Shown piece after piece: positions 5,495-37,151 of a stretch of DNA of 64,000 bases. The stretch lies in NCBI GenBank assembly GCA_945271295.1, contig CALYPG010000001.1:124001-188000 (forward strand), written 5' to 3'. Every line of letters begins with the position of its first letter. Position 1 is the stretch's first letter. The notes beneath the pieces are model-generated. The model was not told the origin of the DNA, did not search any database, and saw only the letters and a list, made by a program, of their open reading frames with translations. The stretch comes from an uncultured Gilliamella sp. GTDB taxonomy: Bacteria > Pseudomonadota > Gammaproteobacteria > Enterobacterales > Orbaceae. A program made the translations under genes and the position numbers.

Positions 5495-5704
5495 CTGTTT
5501 TTCCTGGCGCTCTTGCTTTTTCTGCTCAAGGTAGGTGTTAATGGTGGATAGTCGCCACCTTGGGCTTCTGCCTAAGTATAGATCGGGTTTAGGAAATGCC
5601 TTAGATTTTACCCACCGATCTAGTGTTCTATCATCTATACTAATATACCCGCACGTTTGGGTTTTGTTGTAAAGAGGATCTTCTATTGTATAATTATTTG
5701 CCAC
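5483..5704 (-). CDS. AlpA-like excisionase/recombination directionality factor
   Basis: 73 residues beginning at a GTG with AAGGA eight bases upstream. The sequence YISIDDRTLDRWVKSKAFPKP followed by a SPRWRLSTINTYL segment is a MerR/AlpA-type winged helix-turn-helix. In P4-like prophages such proteins are the excision partner of the integrase. It is the last gene of the leftward operon and overlaps the hexapeptide-repeat gene by 11 bp upstream and the integrase tail by 12 bp downstream, so read-through of the early operon would oppose integrase mRNA. Excision role is inferred from family and position. Confidence 0.8.
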   Translation of the reverse strand: MANNYTIEDPLYNKTQTCGYISIDDRTLDRWVKSKAFPKPDLYLGRSPRWRLSTINTYLEQKKQERQEKQLRG

Positions 5705-7013
5705 TAGTAATATCCTTCTGGGATAGCGAAAATTTTATTAATTCAATAGCTCTCAGGTATTGCCCTTCGTATATATTACCTTTATGAGTTTTTAGTACCT
5801 GCTCCGTAAATTGCTCAACCGTGCCAAAGAAGCAGCCCACCACCACCCATGTAAGGCCTAATGCGCCACGGTAAGCCGTTAACACATCTGAACGAGAGCC
5901 AACCGGATACAAACACAGGTAATCTTTATTCGAAGATATCTGCGCGGTGCCACATACCCGTGCTTCGCCGGATACCTGCGCATCGCCGGATACCTGCGCA
6001 TCGCCGTATACCCGCGCTCTGCCGCTAACTTGTGCACCGCCGCTAACTTGTGCATTGCCGTATACCTGCGCATCGTCGTATGTTAATACGTCGCCGTATA
6101 CCTGTGCTTTGCCGTGTACCTGTGCTCTGCCAGCCGCGGAAACGTAGCCGTATACCTGCGCATCGCCGTATACCCGCGCATCGCCGAACACTTGTGCATT
6201 GCCGAACACTTGTGCATTGCCATATACCCGCGCATTGCCATATACCTGCGCATCGTCGTATACCTTTGCGGTGTCATACACCCACACTTCGCCGCTAACT
6301 TGTGCATTGCCGTATACCTGTGCCTTGCCGTAAACCTGTGCTTTACTGTATACTTGCGCATCGCCGAATACCTGTGCTTCGCCGTATATCCGTGCGCTGT
6401 TATGTACCCACGCTTCGCCGTATACCTGTGCCTTGCCGTAAACCTGTGCTTCGCCGAATACCTGTGTATCGTCGTATATTATTACGTCGCCGTATACCTG
6501 TGCTTTGCCGTATATCTGTGCGCTGTTATGTACCCGCGCATCGCCATATACCCGCGCATCGCCATATACCTGCGCATCGCCATATATCCATGCTTTGCCG
6601 TATACCTGCGCTTTGCCGTATACCTGCGCGTCGCCTCTTACTTGTGCTTTGCCTCTTACTTGTGCTTTGCCGCTTACCTGTGCTTTGCCGAATACCCGCG
6701 CATCGTCGTATATCTGTGCGCTGTTATGTACCCGCGCTTCGCCTCTTACTTGTGCCTTGCCGTAAACCTGTGCTTCGCCGTAAACCTGTGCTCCTCCGGC
6801 TATGTACGCACCTTCAAATACCTGTGCACCGTCACATACCCACGAACATCCTACAAAACTTAAATTAGCTTCTGACTCTATGAACCCGCCTTTGCTTCCT
6901 GCTTTTATCACCCCCAATGAGGTATTTATATCTATTAACGCCCTGATTCTGTAGAGTTTATGCCCCTTGACTTCTAGACTTTCGTCTGTTAATTCGTATT
7001 TAGTATTTTTCAT
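5694..7013 (-). CDS. Giant hexapeptide-repeat (left-handed beta-helix) phage protein
   Basis: 439 residues. After a ~60-residue N-terminal region (KYELTDESLEVKGHKLYRIRAL) come roughly fifty near-identical hexapeptides of the type A-Q-V-Y-G-D/K up to about residue 375, then an 80-residue C-terminal domain with a GLTWVVVGCFFG hydrophobic stretch. The period-six pattern with a small residue and Val predicts a left-handed parallel beta-helix. Shorter relatives with the same N-terminal domain are common in phages and are sometimes annotated as YdcK-like or acyltransferase-like; no catalytic residue is evident and function is unknown. SD AAAGGAAA precedes the ATG. The repeat tract creates long meaningless ORFs on the opposite strand. 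Confidence 0.85.
   Translation of the reverse strand: MKNTKYELTDESLEVKGHKLYRIRALIDINTSLGVIKAGSKGGFIESEANLSFVGCSWVCDGAQVFEGAYIAGGAQVYGEAQVYGKAQVRGEARVHNSAQIYDDARVFGKAQVSGKAQVRGKAQVRGDAQVYGKAQVYGKAWIYGDAQVYGDARVYGDARVHNSAQIYGKAQVYGDVIIYDDTQVFGEAQVYGKAQVYGEAWVHNSARIYGEAQVFGDAQVYSKAQVYGKAQVYGNAQVSGEVWVYDTAKVYDDAQVYGNARVYGNAQVFGNAQVFGDARVYGDAQVYGYVSAAGRAQVHGKAQVYGDVLTYDDAQVYGNAQVSGGAQVSGRARVYGDAQVSGDAQVSGEARVCGTAQISSNKDYLCLYPVGSRSDVLTAYRGALGLTWVVVGCFFGTVEQFTEQVLKTHKGNIYEGQYLRAIELIKFSLSQKDITSGK
5946..6850. repeat. 18-bp minisatellite encoding the hexapeptides
   Basis: Degenerate tandem 18-bp units, in minus-strand sense of the type GCGCAGGTATACGGCGAT, repeated about fifty times with no gap or frame break. 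Some longer blocks (several units) recur, which indicates copy-number change by unequal recombination or slippage. Because unit length is a multiple of three, gain or loss keeps the reading frame. Confidence 0.85.
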
Positions 7014-7024
7014 AATTATTTCCT

Positions 7025-7888
7025 TTAGATAATAGTATTCATGTGCTTTAAAATGTGGGCTATAACGTCAACAGTCCAACCATTGCCGAGAGTTTTATAG
7101 CGTTGAGTGTTGCTAATTCCTGCGGTGTGATTGTCTGGTAGTGTTTGAAGTCGTTCGCATTCGATTGGGGTTGCACGTCTATATTTATTTTCCGAAATTT
7201 GAATAAAATTACCATTCCAGCTCGCATATTGACGTGCTGTCATAGTTATAGCTTTACTGTTATCAGTGCATAAAGCGGAATAACATTTACTAATTTGATA
7301 ATCCTTGTTGATATTCCACCACTCAACCCAGCCGTCAGTGCATATATCTACATCTGAATAATCGGATTTAATATCTCCGAATAAAATTCCCTTATCTTCT
7401 GGCTGCTCTACATCCCAGTTACACCAGTAAAGGCGTTTTCTATCCTGCGCCGACACTAACGCGCTATTAATCATGATAGGCTCAACACCAACAACAGATG
7501 TAATTACACGTTCATAATCTTTTTTCATCCTGACATTTTCGAGTAAAAATTTAATGCCAGAATTGAGTGACTTAACATGTGACAGTATTTCAGCAAATCT
7601 GAAAAATAATGCTGAACGTTTATCATCAAATGCAAGTTGTTTGCCCGCAAATGAAAACCCCTGACATGGTGACCCCGCTAATATCAAATCAATATCGGAC
7701 CAGGGAATGCCCCAATCTTCCCAATTGTTTATATCACCAAGTCGGATTATGTCCGGGTAATTGTTTTGACTGACTTGGATTGCATATTTATCAATCTCGC
7801 TAGCGTAGTATGTTGTTACATTAATATTTGCGCGTTCGAGCGCAACTCGACCGCAACTTATGCCGTCAAATAAAGAAAGTACGTTCAT
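7025..7888 (-). CDS. DNA (cytosine-5-)methyltransferase, phage DNMT3-like type
   Basis: 287 residues. It methylates cytosine C5 in DNA using SAM. Motif I LSLFDGISCG is at the N-terminus, the catalytic Pro-Cys motif is GSPCQGFSFAG (Cys near 74), motif VI is LLENV, and SAQDRKRLYW and LGNGWTVD mark motifs VIII and X. The short form without a large target recognition domain resembles the phage enzymes related to DNMT3. No restriction endonuclease is next to it, so self-protection against host restriction or regulation is more likely than a complete R-M system. It is 36 bp downstream of the SNF2 gene in the early operon. Confidence 0.95.
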   Translation of the reverse strand: MNVLSLFDGISCGRVALERANINVTTYYASEIDKYAIQVSQNNYPDIIRLGDINNWEDWGIPWSDIDLILAGSPCQGFSFAGKQLAFDDKRSALFFRFAEILSHVKSLNSGIKFLLENVRMKKDYERVITSVVGVEPIMINSALVSAQDRKRLYWCNWDVEQPEDKGILFGDIKSDYSDVDICTDGWVEWWNINKDYQISKCYSALCTDNSKAITMTARQYASWNGNFIQISENKYRRATPIECERLQTLPDNHTAGISNTQRYKTLGNGWTVDVIAHILKHMNTII

Positions 7889-19869: not shown

Positions 19870-20049
19870 ATGCAAAAAATAGATTGGTTTACGATTATTA
19901 GCGATTTAAAAAAAGCCGGAATTTCCGGGCGGGAGATAGCCAGACGGCTAAACGTCAGCGTGTCAACCGTTGTTATGTGGAAAAACGGATCATCACCAAG
20001 TTACGAAAAAGGGGTTAAGTTGATGCAAATGTGGGAGAGCGTAAAGTAA
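19870..20049 (+). CDS. Mini helix-turn-helix protein
   Basis: 59 residues: MQKIDWFTIISDLKKAGISG, then REIARRLNVSVSTVVMWKNG (helix-turn-helix), then SPSYEKGVKLMQMWESVK. The layout IDW, two helices, and a Tyr-x-x-Gly-x-x-Leu-x-x-Trp end matches the 22400 product. SD GAGG precedes the start and a perfect palindrome sits just upstream. The stop codon abuts a strong terminator, so it is a monocistronic regulatory gene. Target unknown; the palindrome or iterons are candidates. Confidence 0.75.
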   Translation: MQKIDWFTIISDLKKAGISGREIARRLNVSVSTVVMWKNGSSPSYEKGVKLMQMWESVK

Positions 20050-20075
20050 AAAGCCCAGCTAATAGTTGGGCTTTT
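20049..20075. terminator. Bidirectional terminator
   Basis: 12-bp stem AAAAGCCCAGCT/AGTTGGGCTTTT with loop AAT and one wobble pair; T runs on both strands. It ends the mini-HTH gene from the left and the hairpin-array RNA from the right. Confidence 0.9.
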
Positions 20076-20309
20076 CCACTTATTCAGCGGTTTTTATCCT
20101 AAAAGGAACAGAATTAAATATTTCTAAACAACCTATTCGGTTGTAAGGTTTTAAAATAAAGACAAAATTTAATGTTTCTAAACTACTTATTCAGTAGTAA
20201 TTTTTTAAAAAGAAACTAAATTTCATATTTCTAAACAACCTATTCGGTTGTAAGTTTTCAAACTATCTAAAATAATTAGATTTTCTAAACCGCTTATTCA
20301 GCGGTAGCT
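20068..20309 (-). ncRNA. Array of five type I-F CRISPR-repeat-like hairpins, candidate RNA anti-CRISPR
   Basis: Read on the minus strand, five 28-nt units begin at 20309, 20255, 20202, 20148 and 20095, a 54/53/54/53-nt period. Each has a 5-bp stem at positions 6-10/16-20 and the invariant loop GAATA at 11-15; units 1-4 end in TTTAGAAA. Stems are CCGCT/AGCGG, CAACC/GGTTG, CTACT/AGTAG, CAACC/GGTTG and CCGCT/AGTGG (one G-U pair), so they covary. The C6-G20 pair, G11 and A15 are constant, as in type I-F repeats recognised by Cas6f/Csy4 (stem CTGCC/GGCAG, loop GTATA, tail CTAAGAAA or CTTAGAAA). The 25/26-nt interspaces are AT-rich and resemble one another, unlike acquired spacers. Unit 5 lost its tag. 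No cas genes are present. The structure is certain; the anti-CRISPR role is inference. Confidence 0.7.
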
Positions 20310-20311
20310 TT

Positions 20312-20340
20312 AATTTATGCTTTTTCTTATATGTTGTCAA
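20312..20340 (-). promoter_or_regulatory. Promoter of the hairpin-array RNA
   Basis: Consensus -35 TTGACA (20335-20340, overlapping the stop codon of the upstream gene), 17-bp spacer, -10 TAAATT (20312-20317). The start would fall near 20305, at the first hairpin stem. With the terminator at 20049-20075 this defines an independent transcript of about 255 nt. Confidence 0.55.
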
Positions 20341-20684
20341 TTAAAATTGAATATATCTATACCCGCTTCTGACATTTCATTTCTATAATCAAAAAACATA
20401 GCTATTACATCTTCTATAAAATCATCTTCAAAGTCAAAAACTTTAACCCCCTTTGATTGTTGTATCCTAATATAACCAAGCAAACCTCGAACAAATCCAG
20501 CGAAAACCTGATCGGGCATAATCTCGTAACCCGAACTTTCGGGATTTATTTTAGACCAGCGCCCAATTTTATTTTTATTTACGTTCGGGTACCCCCCGAT
20601 TGCCAGTATATGACTTGTTACCTCAGATTTTTTGCTTAATCCAGTTAATTGTAGAAATCTATTAAATATAAAATTAGTATTCAT
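20337..20684 (-). CDS. Unknown accessory protein with degenerate HTH-like start
   Basis: 115 residues. The N-terminus (FLQLTGLSKKSEVTSHILAI, then KIGRWSKIN) resembles the helix-turn-helix of CI-like regulators; the C-terminal half is acidic (FDFEDDFIEDVIAMFFDY). Its ATG lies inside the end of the upstream gene, so it is cotranslated as the last gene of the Aca2-like operon. I do not recognise a family. Candidates: a second regulator, or an anti-CRISPR or other counter-defence protein, both inferred from location only. Confidence 0.65.
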   Translation of the reverse strand: MNTNFIFNRFLQLTGLSKKSEVTSHILAIGGYPNVNKNKIGRWSKINPESSGYEIMPDQVFAGFVRGLLGYIRIQQSKGVKVFDFEDDFIEDVIAMFFDYRNEMSEAGIDIFNFN

Positions 20685-21027: not shown

Positions 21028-21375
21028 CTATGCTATTAGTATTTTAATTCGACCTTTGATATATAGTTCATATATAACAGATACCTGTATCTTAAATTCT
21101 ATCGGGTCGGTTTCTTGTAATTCGTACGGTATCTTTATTTCTTTAGTCCCGCGGTCGAGATGATAAGCTAATATCTCAGCGCGGCGTTTTTTAACGTTTT
21201 CAACATTTTGTTCGATACCCTCCGGGATATTAAACTCCCCTTTTTCCCAACGTTGCCAGCTCCGGCGGTTCACACCGTTAGGGTGTTCTTCATCTGCTGC
21301 AAGAAGCCTTGCGGCTTCTGCGTCTATGTCTAAGTTTAAAAAATTTCTTATTGCAATCAATTCTTCATTATTCAT
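21028..21375 (-). CDS. Aca2/YdiL-like helix-turn-helix regulator
   Basis: 115 residues. The pattern EELIAIRNFLNLDIDAEAA, then RRSWQRWEKGEFNIPEGIEQ, and a C-terminal FKIQVSVIYELYIKG segment matches the YdiL (DUF1870) family that includes Aca2, the anti-CRISPR-associated autorepressor (~116 residues). An extra ~8 residues (ADEEHPNG) sit between the two halves of the helix-turn-helix. Aca2 binds promoter inverted repeats and is also known to bind hairpins in its mRNA. Here two inverted repeats lie in the leaders at 21579 and 22015. It overlaps the J-like gene by 8 bp. Family call is from remembered sequence patterns, not a search. Confidence 0.72.
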   Translation of the reverse strand: MNNEELIAIRNFLNLDIDAEAARLLAADEEHPNGVNRRSWQRWEKGEFNIPEGIEQNVENVKKRRAEILAYHLDRGTKEIKIPYELQETDPIEFKIQVSVIYELYIKGRIKILIA

Positions 21376-21553
21376 TTAAAATCCTCAAAAGTTTAACGAT
21401 CATCTCTCGATCTATTTTAACCGAAAAGGTATAAAGGTTTTGGTTAAAAAGGTGAAATCTTAAAGATGCTGTTTTATAAGCTTTTTTGATTTCTGTTTGT
21501 GTAGCACTAGATTGTGATATGTTTAATACGTTGAATGCTTCGTTGACGTTCAT
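21368..21553 (-). CDS. Truncated J-domain-like protein lacking HPD
   Basis: 61 residues. NEAFNVLNISQSSATQTEIKKAYKTASLRFH follows helices I and II of a DnaJ J-domain, but the invariant HPD is replaced by HLF, and the end (REMIVKLLRILNE) looks like a distorted helix III-IV. Without HPD it should not stimulate DnaK ATPase. It is first after promoter 21609-21637 and overlaps the Aca2-like gene. It may be a decayed J-domain, a frameshifted copy, or a decoy that binds DnaK unproductively. Confidence 0.6.
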   Translation of the reverse strand: MNVNEAFNVLNISQSSATQTEIKKAYKTASLRFHLFNQNLYTFSVKIDREMIVKLLRILNE

Positions 21554-21578: not shown

Positions 21579-21637
21579 ACCGCGGACCTTTCCGCGGTAT
21601 GTAAGTTTATTATGCCCCATAATGAGACGTTAGTCAA
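21579..21637 (-). promoter_or_regulatory. Promoter A with leader inverted repeat
   Basis: TTGACT (21632-21637), 17-bp spacer, CATAAT (21609-21614). About four bases after the expected start is a perfect inverted repeat ACCGCGGA-AAGG-TCCGCGGT (21579-21598), which would form an 8-bp hairpin in mRNA and a 20-bp operator in DNA. Same layout as promoter B. Confidence 0.75.
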
Positions 21638-21646
21638 TAGTTATTT

Positions 21647-21991
21647 CTAAAAGTTTTTGTTAACATTTTTATCTAACCATTTTTGTAAACAATCTTGTAT
21701 TTCTTCGATCGGATAATGATGATCTCTAACACACGCGACTGTCTTATCTTTTAACTTGAACAAGCGTTTGATGCGAAACATTTCATTAGTTTCAATGTGT
21801 GTATCAACGCGCTCTACGCACCATTTTTCGCTGAAAGTATTAATACGAACCCACTCCAAAAACTCACCGACCCCCCGGCTTGTTTTAATAATGAATTTAA
21901 TCGCGCCACAATTTTGATAGTCGCTAAACTCTGTTTCAAATTCTTTTACATGCATTTCAAAGCTGTTCATAAATTGATTTGTTACTTTCAT
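21647..21991 (-). CDS. Unknown small protein, anti-CRISPR candidate
   Basis: 114 residues, not recognised. N-terminal helical segment (NSFEMHVKEFETEFSDY), a central aromatic and acidic stretch (GVGEFLEWVRINTFSEKW), and the end EIQDCLQKWLDKN. It has its own strong promoter (22048-22076), nearly duplicated from that of the Aca2-like operon, including the leader inverted repeat, so both units should be under the same regulator. Counter-defence function is inferred only from this shared control. Confidence 0.65.
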   Translation of the reverse strand: MKVTNQFMNSFEMHVKEFETEFSDYQNCGAIKFIIKTSRGVGEFLEWVRINTFSEKWCVERVDTHIETNEMFRIKRLFKLKDKTVACVRDHHYPIEEIQDCLQKWLDKNVNKNF

Positions 21992-22399: not shown

Positions 22400-22645
22400 A
22401 TGGCAAATAAAATCGACTGGACACGATTAATTAACGAGATACTGAAAAGTGATAAGTCACTATCGTTAGCGCTGATTGCTAAAAGCATCGGCTTAGCGAA
22501 AAGCTCAGTTGTTCGTATGCGTCTACTCGAAATTGAGCCCAAGTACCACATCGGTGATGCGTTGATCACGCTCTGGCGGCGGTCCACCAACCAACCCGAT
22601 ACTAACCCCCCCCAGCTAAAAGATAGGTGCAAACATGGCAACTAA
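22400..22645 (+). CDS. Mini helix-turn-helix protein, first late gene
   Basis: 81 residues. IDWTRLINEILKSDKSLSLA, LIAKSIGLAKSSVVRMRLLE (helix-turn-helix) and YHIGDALITLW match the 19870 product in order, with an added Pro-rich tail. It starts the rightward structural operon and overlaps the next gene by 11 bp. It could be a late regulator; a small terminase is possible but the gene before the large terminase fits that better. Confidence 0.7.
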   Translation: MANKIDWTRLINEILKSDKSLSLALIAKSIGLAKSSVVRMRLLEIEPKYHIGDALITLWRRSTNQPDTNPPQLKDRCKHGN

Positions 22646-34356: not shown

Positions 34357-36834
34357 ATGAAGCAATGTTATCAAGCTGTTATCAATGCCGCAACCGGGCG
34401 TAATTTATCTAAAGCAGAAGTGCAAGAAATTATTAATAACATTTTAAAAAATCAGCAAAAACTAGCCCGGCAAGATCCTAACTGGCAAACACTACCTGCA
34501 GAAGAAAAACTACGTCAGGCGGCCGAATACAGTGTTAACGAAGCCATACACAAAAAAGAGTTAAAGCGGCATAGGGTAGCCTTAACAATTTTGGCACGGG
34601 ATCGGATTGAAAACCAGATCGCGGATATGGTAAAAAGAGGCGTTGCTAAAAATCAACTGGAAGGTTTAAACAGGTTATTAGCGTATAACCCGGATAATAA
34701 AACGGGTTACCAAGCCTTAGATACTCGGGCTACTGCAACAAGGAATTGGGCGGTGGGGCAAACTTTAGACGCCTTTGATCAATCTAAACTCTTAGGATTA
34801 TTTGAGGATGAAAAAGGTATAACAGATCTAGTCCACGAAATGTTTGGCGAGGATACGGGCAATCAAAAAGCCAAGTTGGCCGCGGAACATTGGAAACAAC
34901 AAACCGACTTACTACGTGAAACTTTTAACAATGCTGGTGGGGATATTGGCCATCTTAGAAACTGGAACTTACCGCAAGAACATTCGCAAATAAAAATATC
35001 TAAAGTGGGGCCAGAGGAGTGGCTCAATGACATAATGCCAGCGCTAGATCGTTCTCAATACGTCCACCCGGACGGGCAACCAATGACGGACCATGAGGTA
35101 CGAGAATTATTTTCACATATATACGATACGGTATCCACAGGCGGAGTAAATAAACTGACTGCGAGTGGACAAAAGATATCTAGTATGACAGCTAACCGTA
35201 GAAGTGATTCCCGTCAAATATTCTTTAAAGATGCGGATAGCTTTTTACAGTACCACCAGAAATACGGCGATCACGGTATCTTTGATATCATGATGGGTCA
35301 CATATCCGGGGTGAGCCGCGATATCGCCGCTATCGAAACTTTCGGCCCTAATCCTAACCTGATGTTTAGATCATTGTTAGATGAAGCGCGCCAAAATGCA
35401 GTAATGTCTGATAGGTCTAATACTTCACAAATTAACGGTTATGCTCAAAAAACTAGTAACCTATTTGATTATGTAACAGGTAATTATAGTCCAGTAGTTA
35501 GACCACGTTTTGCCGGGGTTATGGATAGCTTGCGCAATCTGCTAACAGGGGCACGTCTTGGAAGTGCTACCATCACATCCATAACCGATCAGGGTACCTT
35601 ACTTTTGATGGCTAAAACTAACGGCATGGCGCTTGGCCCTGCTTATAAAAGTATGATGTCCTCTCTTAACCCTTTAAGCCATAGTGATAAACGCTTTGCG
35701 CAACGTAACGGGTTAGCGCTAGAAAGTACATTAGCCAGTCTTAACCGTTGGGGTGTCGATAATATGAAAACCAACTGGTCAAGTAAAGCAGCATCTACCG
35801 TGCTACGCTTATCTGGGCTAATGAAAATTTCAGACGCGGCAAAGGAAGGCTATGCTACTTCGATGATGTCCTCTATCGGTCATGTGGTTAGCACGAATTC
35901 AGACTTAGCGACACTTACTAAAACTAGCAAATTTGATGCGGAGTTAATAAAGCGCCATGGCGTGAGCGATACCGATTTTGCTATTTGGAAACATGCAAAA
36001 CTTGACGAATGGTCCGGGGTTAATAATTTGTTAACACCTGAAAGTATTATGGCGGTACCAGATAGCAAGATAGCACATTTAGGAAATCCGCAACATATTA
36101 AGTTTGATGCAGCAAGAAAGTTAATAGGTATGCTATCCGAGGAGGCGGACATGGCCGTAATCACTCCGGGCACCCGTGATCGCTTACGAATGGGGGCGAA
36201 CTTACAAAGAGGTACCGCAGGGGGTGAGATTATGCGATCAATTACCCAGTTTAAAGCCTTTCCTTTTGCGTTGGTCGCCCGGATGTGGGCGCGGGGTACC
36301 GCACTGCCAACCCGGTTGCAAAAAGCCTATTTTGGCGGTTCACTTCTTTTAGCTACCACTCTTTTTGGCGCCGCGGCTTTGCAAACAAATAATATTGCGT
36401 CAGGAAGAAAACCACAGGATATGAGCGATGCCAATTTTTGGTTGGAATCCATGTTAAAGGGCGGCGCGTTAGGTGTTTACGGCGACTTCATTTTCTCAGA
36501 TAAAAACAGCTACGGCGCCACTATGGGTGAAATGGCTATAGGACCGTTAGGATCTAGCCTAGCACAATTTGCAGATTTGACGCTAGGTAACGCTAGACGG
36601 GCTATTGCTGGGGAGGATACCCACGTTGGCGCCGATGCGGTCAGGTTTGTTAAGGGGGTAACGCCGGGTGCTAACCTTTGGTATACAAAAGCGGTTACAG
36701 ACCACTTGTTGTTTAATCAGTTACAAGAAGCGGTTAGCCCTGGATACTTGCAAAAATATATGAATCGTCAGCGAAATGTTTATGGTCGCGAATATTGGTG
36801 GCGGCCTGATGAAATTATACCGGGGGATATGTAA
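34357..36834 (+). CDS. Large internal virion protein, C-terminal gp16-like
   Basis: 825 residues. Begins MKQCYQAVINAATGRNLSKAEVQ, with SD AAGGA eight bases before its ATG inside the preceding gene, so independent initiation is plausible. Features: long helical body, GEIMRSITQFKAFPFALVAR about residue 625, and hydrophobic YFGGSLLLATTLFGAAAL (~655) typical of ejected channel proteins. No lytic transglycosylase motif was found in either half. Confidence 0.75.
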   Translation: MKQCYQAVINAATGRNLSKAEVQEIINNILKNQQKLARQDPNWQTLPAEEKLRQAAEYSVNEAIHKKELKRHRVALTILARDRIENQIADMVKRGVAKNQLEGLNRLLAYNPDNKTGYQALDTRATATRNWAVGQTLDAFDQSKLLGLFEDEKGITDLVHEMFGEDTGNQKAKLAAEHWKQQTDLLRETFNNAGGDIGHLRNWNLPQEHSQIKISKVGPEEWLNDIMPALDRSQYVHPDGQPMTDHEVRELFSHIYDTVSTGGVNKLTASGQKISSMTANRRSDSRQIFFKDADSFLQYHQKYGDHGIFDIMMGHISGVSRDIAAIETFGPNPNLMFRSLLDEARQNAVMSDRSNTSQINGYAQKTSNLFDYVTGNYSPVVRPRFAGVMDSLRNLLTGARLGSATITSITDQGTLLLMAKTNGMALGPAYKSMMSSLNPLSHSDKRFAQRNGLALESTLASLNRWGVDNMKTNWSSKAASTVLRLSGLMKISDAAKEGYATSMMSSIGHVVSTNSDLATLTKTSKFDAELIKRHGVSDTDFAIWKHAKLDEWSGVNNLLTPESIMAVPDSKIAHLGNPQHIKFDAARKLIGMLSEEADMAVITPGTRDRLRMGANLQRGTAGGEIMRSITQFKAFPFALVARMWARGTALPTRLQKAYFGGSLLLATTLFGAAALQTNNIASGRKPQDMSDANFWLESMLKGGALGVYGDFIFSDKNSYGATMGEMAIGPLGSSLAQFADLTLGNARRAIAGEDTHVGADAVRFVKGVTPGANLWYTKAVTDHLLFNQLQEAVSPGYLQKYMNRQRNVYGREYWWRPDEIIPGDM

Positions 36835-37151
36835 TGAATCAGCTTGAAAAATTAAAACAGTTATCTGATAAGATGGTCGGTATAGTTATCGCAGAAGCCG
36901 ATCCGGATACATGGGCGGGGGCCAATAAAAAACTAGATGAAATGTCAGAAGACGAGCGTGGTGATCGCTACTGGTGTAAGAAAAACGCTAATCAAGTTAT
37001 CACAACGGCGGTTAAGCTTGAAACCTTAATTGCGTTATATGAACGTAAAGGAAGCCAGCCAAAAGATAATAAAGTGACCGAGTTAAGCGATAAAGTAATC
37101 CAGTTTGAACAAGCAGCCAAAGAAAGGTTGGAACGTTTAGCAAATGGCTAA
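36834..37151 (+). CDS. Probable small terminase subunit
   Basis: 105 residues, starting on the last base of the previous stop and overlapping the large terminase by 8 bp. Helical and charged: QLEKLKQLSDKMVGIVIAEA, WAGANKKLDEMSEDERGDRYW, then a coiled-coil end. T7-type small terminase genes lie near the large one and have such a helical layout. No sequence motif proves it. Confidence 0.6.
   Translation: MNQLEKLKQLSDKMVGIVIAEADPDTWAGANKKLDEMSEDERGDRYWCKKNANQVITTAVKLETLIALYERKGSQPKDNKVTELSDKVIQFEQAAKERLERLANG

Follow-up and report, generated by a model that had tools for sequence, protein, structure and literature searches.

The stretch of DNA analysed here (the window, 64,000 nucleotides) belongs to a 2.80-Mb Gilliamella genome, G000. 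Inside a prophage, five hairpins stand in a row on the minus strand, at the end of an Aca2-like operon (Table 1). They lie on the same contig as the cas locus, about 84 kb away from it and not at the locus itself. Judged from their sequence, all five have what Cas6f requires of a type I-F repeat.

Table 1 Features of the hairpin array, the neighbouring operon and the protospacers of host spacers, in positions of the window.
Feature	Position	Strand	Remarks
Sigma-70-like promoter TTGACA-17-TAAATT	20312..20340	-	10/12 to consensus; weak; overlaps 3' end of ORF 20337-20684
Unit 1 (u1)	20282..20309	-	Stem CCGCT/AGCGG, loop GAATA, handle TTTAGAAA; 23/24 identical to host C3/C5 array repeat
Guide 1 (26 nt)	20256..20281	-	Contains 6-bp inverted repeat; cas-promoter target not significant
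Unit 2 (u2)	20228..20255	-	Stem CAACC/GGTTG, loop GAATA, handle TTTAGAAA
Guide 2 (25 nt)	20203..20227	-	15 5' nt identical to host CreR guide; 22/25 to L023 cas-promoter site, CC PAM
Unit 3 (u3)	20175..20202	-	Stem CTACT/AGTAG, the stem of host CreR hairpin 1; loop GAATA; handle TTTAGAAA
Guide 3 (26 nt)	20149..20174	-	11 5' nt identical to L042 CreR guide; 20/25 to L042 cas-promoter site, CC PAM
Unit 4 (u4)	20121..20148	-	Stem CAACC/GGTTG, loop GAATA, handle TTTAGAAA
Guide 4 (25 nt)	20096..20120	-	13/15 5' nt shared with L035/L036 CreR guide; promoter target not significant
Unit 5 (u5)	20068..20095	-	Stem CCGCT/AGTGG, loop GAATA, handle lost; would close fourth crRNA-like RNA
Terminator-like inverted repeat	20049..20075	-	Array end; arms 20049-20061/20063-20075, 92% complementary
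ORF 115 aa, last gene of Aca2 operon	20337..20684	-	No family above cut-off
ORF 114 aa	20674..21018	-	No family above cut-off; only in G000 among 44 Orbaceae genomes
Aca2-like regulator	21028..21375	-	Pfam Aca2_YdiL 45.1 bits, cut-off 23.8, E 1.3e-11
ORF 61 aa, weak J-domain similarity	21368..21553	-	DnaJ 22.6 bits, below cut-off 27.8
Perfect 8-bp inverted repeat ACCGCGGA-4-TCCGCGGT	21579..21598		Upstream of part of Aca2 operon
ORF 114 aa	21647..21991	-	AcrF10_fam 13.3 bits, cut-off 28, E 0.094
Protospacer of host spacer C3_3	36440..36471	-	32/32, PAM CC
Protospacer of host spacer C1_17	36873..36904	-	32/32, PAM CC

The units start at 20309, 20255, 20202, 20148 and 20095, in steps of 54, 53, 54 and 53 nt. 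Ten positions are invariant in all of them (A5, C6, C9, G11, A12, A13, T14, A15, G17 and G20), and the 5-bp stem, 6-10 against 16-20, pairs in 25 of 25 cells. Both sides have changed in three of the five stem pairs; the resulting covariation score of 0.76, for five sequences only, was reached by 1 of 500 shuffles. The two-unit short-step pattern occurs three times in the window and never in 100 dinucleotide shuffles. The 262-nt array RNA has a predicted folding energy of -69.3 kcal/mol (z -5.74), with 0 of 200 shuffles as good; in the minimum-energy fold u1 pairs with u5, and local hairpins are formed by u2, u3 and u4 only.

The places and spacing of the five minus-strand units, the GAATA loop common to all, the handle on four of them, the compensating stem changes and the adjoining Aca2-like operon had all been put forward in the original prediction, and all are confirmed here. 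Its promoter and terminator stand in part. The TTGACA/TAAATT boxes are present, but the region has no more sites of this kind than its shuffles do (5 found against 7.3 +/- 3.1); the terminator arms are complementary and fold in the RNA prediction, although the terminator is missing from the list of the consensus scan.

Next to the array, the perfect inverted repeat upstream of part of the operon is a possible Aca operator. An AcrF10 identity was considered for the ORF at 21647-21991 and rejected, the similarity being below threshold and the single-sequence AlphaFold model useless (pLDDT 38). Among IMG/VR proteins we found two distant relatives of the Aca2-like regulator and none of two other ORFs of the operon. 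A sister prophage in G028, a genome in which csy1 was not found, lacks the 2.3 kb that hold array and operon but retains the primase, the small HTH gene and a gene resembling window positions 22400-22645. A related prophage in the csy1-bearing genome G020 is organised differently in the corresponding region and shows no array in 10.5 kb, which argues against a simple rule. Elsewhere in the window, a 439-aa ORF adjoining the integrase (5694-7013) is built from numerous near-copies of a short motif of the 'AQVYG' type.

The host carries its own type I-F system. G000 encodes cas1, csy1, csy2, csy3 and csy4 (Pfam), and an open frame of 1111 codons in the cas locus is read as cas2-3 from its position. 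In named genomes the relatives of its Cas6f are mostly from Gilliamella, the best being 97% identical (Gilliamella sp. wkB178). Type I-F is also present in the wider host clade, with csy1 found in 23 of 44 Orbaceae genomes. The C1 array of G000 holds 38 repeats, and two more arrays, on C5 and C3, use the repeat GTTCACCGCTGCATAAGCGGTTTAGAAA, to which u1 is identical at 23 of 24 positions; this supports the earlier claim that the units mimic type I-F repeats. Guide 1, in turn, is identical in register to the penultimate spacer of the C1 array (G000:C1:235303-235336) at 27 of 32 positions, which suggests exchange between the phage array and the host array.

We matched the 62 spacer slots of the three host arrays against the prophage and found two perfect protospacers with CC PAMs. 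Because these two spacers target the cell's own prophage while the cas genes are open, CRISPR is presumably inhibited in the lysogen; the self-targeting does not tell which element inhibits it. A third spacer, C5_4, matches the window at 7140 (minus strand) at 29 of 32 positions; this site, whose PAM is AC, falls within a putative DNA methyltransferase gene (7025-7888) and is possibly an escaped target.

We collected the regions upstream of csy1 (cas8f) from 36 Orbaceae loci, 23 of them distinct. In 19 of the 23 a two-hairpin, crRNA-like CreR (Cas-regulating RNA) lies there; the other four are L027, where an ordinary array stands, L028, L050 and L045 (559 nt only of sequence). In G000 the two hairpins lie between cas2-3 and csy1 (G000:C1:228316-228660, the same as L011:3317-3660). 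Hairpin 1 has the handle CTTAGAAA, followed by TATGAAATTTAGTTT; hairpin 2 has no handle. Across loci the hairpin-to-hairpin steps range from 48 to 66 nt.

In the csy1 promoter region of G000, the CreR guide has a matching site just before a TTGACA; of its 15 5' positions, 6 and 12 are mismatched. In all 19 loci the guide finds a matching site in its own promoter region, preceded by CC in 17 and by CT in two (G000 and L018). With CC only, own CreR-promoter pairs match on average at 13.00 of 15 positions, against 8.48 for 332 swapped pairs, six of which reached 13; none of 20000 permutations was as good as the own pairing. With sites chosen by total match, the 17 distinct pairs agree at a rate of 0.97 over positions 1-11 without 6, of 0.65 at position 6 and of 0.18 at position 12; of 105 position pairs, 6 and 12 rank lowest. 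In type I Cascade every sixth guide base is flipped out, so this pattern of mismatches is the one that binding by Cascade should leave.

Upstream of csy1 in 29 loci outside Orbaceae we found no CreR-like element, only one chance hairpin with no fitting target. The type I-F CreR-like element of Orbaceae is apparently undescribed in the open-licence literature, preprints aside. Between the putatively CreR-repressed promoter and csy1, several Orbaceae loci have a 107-aa ORF that matches no Pfam family (L011:3660-3983 and homologues); by eye it is absent in the L017/L020/L021/L025 type. The repeat of the G000 C1 array has A6 against G20 and thus four paired bases; C6-G20, as found in G000 CreR hairpin 1 and in every phage unit, may make a stronger Cas6f site.

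The four phage guides were compared with 16 native CreR guides, one of which (L036b) belongs to a second copy whose full hairpin went undetected. Over the first 15 nt, the score is 15 for guide 2, 13 for guide 3, 13 for guide 4 and 10 for guide 1, with shuffle p values of 0/20000, 0.00065, 0.00045 and 0.18, respectively. On this comparison three of the four interspaces, guides 2, 3 and 4, carry CreR-like seeds, and three CreR lineages are represented in one phage array. When 25 nt with a CC PAM were matched against 19 promoter regions, the L023 site of guide 2, which adjoins a -35-like TTGACT, was equalled in 0 of 1000 shuffles and the L042 site of guide 3 had p 0.001; for guides 1 and 4 no cas-promoter target was significant (p 0.59 and 0.15), all these p values being per-test values for four guides and several scorings. 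As a control, 1500 AT-rich prophage 25-mers were scored in the same way: one reached 20 and none 22. Shorter scoring agrees, with p 0.0025 to 0.02 for guide 2, 0/400 to 0.004 for guide 3 and no significance for guides 1 and 4.

In the host itself, guide 2 fits the G000 cas promoter at positions 1-15 except 6 and 12, and the match fades past 15. This site is preceded by CT, not CC, as is the native G000 CreR site. Guide 4 has a 12-nt match in csy4 with a CT PAM, found only in G000 and L028 among 13 loci. Guide 1 was tried as a proven cas guide and rejected: CC with its 15-position seed has no match in 35 genomes of the genus.

Guides 2 and 3 keep the seed, with a stem and tail that differ from native CreR. 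For guide 2 this pattern, a seed shared with the host CreR beside a different stem and tail, reads as the reverse of what a pure decoy would keep. The array steps of 53/54 nt fall inside the native CreR range, and u5, with no guide after it, is without a handle, like native CreR hairpin 2. Altogether, the array has crRNA-like anatomy, with four handle-guide-hairpin units whose repeats have diverged from the array repeat. Instead of the near-identical repeats and unrelated 32-nt spacers of an adaptive CRISPR array, it has diverged stems and interspaces of 25-26 nt with CreR-like seeds. The earlier conclusion against acquired immunity is supported.

The original prediction had also called the array unusual in being multi-copy, which has to be softened: short-step I-F-like arrays occur in 13 other distinct IMG/VR sequences and in one Orbaceae mobile element. 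From 86 IMG/VR stretches a filter kept 15; L060 was dropped (mostly 60-nt steps) and the identical L110 and L130 were counted once, which leaves 13. Each has at least two well-paired I-F-like units at short steps, mostly of 44-50 nt. These viral arrays (L064, L065, L071, L076, L087, L088, L098, L110/L130, L115, L118, L133, L135 and L138) hold two to six units, L135 having six at 44-nt steps. The handle of the last unit is degraded in L064, L088 and L133. The Orbaceae case, in the csy1-less G043, is a five-unit array (L149, G043:C1:1537737-1537530, minus strand) whose last unit has no handle; the genes around it look like conjugation genes of a mobile element.

Of the 35 genus genomes searched, G000 alone has the whole array, and a DNA search of named phages gave no convincing close relative (7 records, best E 0.03). 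Matches to the short-step array pattern occurred in four of 44 family genomes: G000, G043, G011 (a degenerate array) and G026 (the end of an ordinary array). Among 369 genomes of the class they occurred in three: G000, G099 (an ordinary array with irregular spacing) and G192 (repetitive coding sequence by eye). Ten proteins beside other short-step arrays gave no NCBIfam match and one Pfam match, DUF6876, with no link to Aca or Acr. When 21 guides of these arrays were tested against the sampled cas promoters, with 60 shuffles each, one of 42 tests reached p 0.05; at 16 nt, those of L135 are too short for promoter scoring. Because none of the 29 non-Orbaceae loci shows a CreR-like element, the arrays of other phages are at present not explicable as CreR mimics. 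The short-step arrays may be decoys or may have targets beyond the sampled cas promoters.

That the G000 array engages the host type I-F system in some way is very likely. From computational evidence we propose, with a probability of roughly 0.6, that it is a multi-guide phage mimic of CreR which works, in part or wholly, through guides that lead Cascade to cas promoters. Host Cas6f would cut the array transcript after each G20 and release up to four crRNA-like RNAs, each with an 8-nt handle, a 25-26-nt guide and a 20-nt 3' hairpin, about 53-54 nt long instead of 60. Cascade loaded with these phage RNAs would bind cas promoters by partial complementarity and repress the cas genes with no cutting. 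A set of guides would reach the promoter alleles found in several Gilliamella lineages. Cas6f and Cascade would also be occupied by RNAs of no antiviral use, an added dose effect of the kind seen with Racrs; such titration is likely a second effect of the array. The proteins of the Aca2 operon may likewise inhibit CRISPR. We lean slightly towards a fuller form of the proposal, in which the tandem CreR-like guides are tailored one by one to the cas promoters of different host lineages and make Cascade repress its own genes, together with a type I-F CreR that is specific, within the loci sampled, to Orbaceae.

The matches of guides 2 and 3 to cas promoters with CC PAMs, beyond shuffles, suggest that the guides serve to repress cas genes, a decoy effect perhaps being added. 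The G028 sister prophage without the cassette also favours this reading. Several observations weigh against it: guides 1 and 4 lack a significant cas-promoter target; the host site of guide 2 has a CT PAM and a match that fades past position 15; the csy4 match of guide 4 is limited to two of 13 loci; u1 pairs with u5 in the predicted fold; and CreR-like guides are so far seen in one phage only. Moreover, the operon proteins alone could silence the self-targeting, and the CreR-like seeds could be a functionless relic of capture.

In the passages of reviews that concern such RNAs, CreR, Acr relief of CreR, mini-arrays and Racrs are described (PMC12737573, PMC13131331, PMC11656645), and CreR is named for types I-B, I-E and V-A, with Liu et al. 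2023 cited (PMC13131331); a phage-borne CreR goes unmentioned there. As CreR is presented in these passages (PMC12737573, PMC13131331), the array shares with it a crRNA-like RNA from degenerate repeats and a guide partly complementary to a cas promoter. It differs in being encoded by a phage rather than the cas locus, in having four tandem guides and in belonging to type I-F rather than the types named in PMC13131331. We found neither a phage-encoded CreR nor a type I-F CreR in Gilliamella in the open-licence literature, preprints aside.

To our knowledge, the phage RNA anti-CRISPRs described so far are decoys. The original prediction read the array in the same way, as decoy RNA for Cas6f and Cas7f. 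Repeat mimicry and CRISPR inhibition are supported; the reading is incomplete, since three of the four interspaces resemble CreR guides and two match cas promoters beyond shuffles. As an alternative to the CreR mimic, a multi-copy decoy would have hairpins that only titrate Cas6f/Cas7f and Cascade, interspaces that guide nothing and a CreR likeness due to capture from the host. We regard it as possible, if rather unlikely. According to the parts of Camara-Wilpert et al. 2023 (PMC10651486) on these RNAs, experiments have established lone mimics of type I-F repeats as anti-CRISPRs, which act by sequestering Cas6f and Cas7f; RacrIF1, a substrate for cleavage by Cas6f, captures both proteins and is largely functional with no handle. 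The lack of targets for guides 1 and 4 also fits a decoy, as does the failure of the guides of other phages' short-step arrays to match any sampled cas promoter. However, units 1-4 retain the handle and unit 5 alone has lost it, although the handle of RacrIF1 is largely dispensable. Furthermore, the seeds of guides 2 and 3 still fit cas promoters despite divergence in stem and tail, and one array holds three CreR lineages.

With Racrs, as these are characterised in the same parts of PMC10651486, the array shares a prophage-encoded small RNA that copies the type I-F repeat, the C6-G20 stem, the lack of adjoining cas genes and a place near anti-CRISPR-type genes. It differs in having five units instead of one, with a handle and CreR-like guide between units, and likely loads full Cascade. 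The Racr survey, as described there, retained only repeats unassociated with other repeats. Since only solitary repeats were kept, it would pass over arrays such as this one, with its five units.

A degenerate host CRISPR array or CreR, captured by the prophage and devoid of function, is improbable. The near-identity of unit 1 to the host repeat and the in-register likeness of guide 1 to a host spacer speak for it. Against it stand the compensating stem changes, the regular spacing, the promoter-like and terminator-like ends, the preserved C6-G20 and handles, and the position in an accessory cassette with the Aca2 operon.

We consider it very improbable that the array regulates a gene other than cas, either as a CreA-like antitoxin guide or through targets of guides 1 and 4 elsewhere in the host. 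CreA guides repress toxins via partial complementarity, as summarised in part of PMC12737573, and guides 1 and 4 are free of cas targets; yet no toxin gene was recognised beside the array, and the guide 1 seed with CC matches nothing in the 35 genus genomes. The CreTA system, in the excerpts that describe it (PMC12737573, PMC9458426), resembles our proposal in that one or two ectopic repeats guide Cascade to repress a promoter. It differs in its toxin gene; here the targets would be cas promoters.

Finally, we give hardly any weight to a phage mini-array that arms host Cascade against rival phages: archaeal viruses do carry mini-arrays against related viruses, according to the relevant passage of PMC11656645, but the CC-plus-seed matches of guides 1 and 4, the two searched in IMG/VR (11 and 2 stretches), are by estimate about chance, the guides of 25-26 nt are alike in composition and two match cas promoters. 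As portrayed in passages of PMC11656645 (see also PMC6858448), such viral arrays share with ours the repeat-spacer form, the lack of cas genes and the use of host Cas proteins; here the repeats are not identical to those of the host, and the short guides fit host cas promoters rather than other viruses.

If the CreR-mimic reading is true, counter-defence here hijacks CRISPR self-regulation: the phage would write to the control input of the immune system itself, instead of blocking Cas proteins or offering them decoys. A class of multi-unit phage RNAs may have escaped surveys restricted to solitary repeats. The same reading would explain how the lysogen tolerates a prophage that its own spacers match perfectly. 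It also predicts that CreR guides and cas promoters diversify in an arms race, and across Gilliamella both do so.
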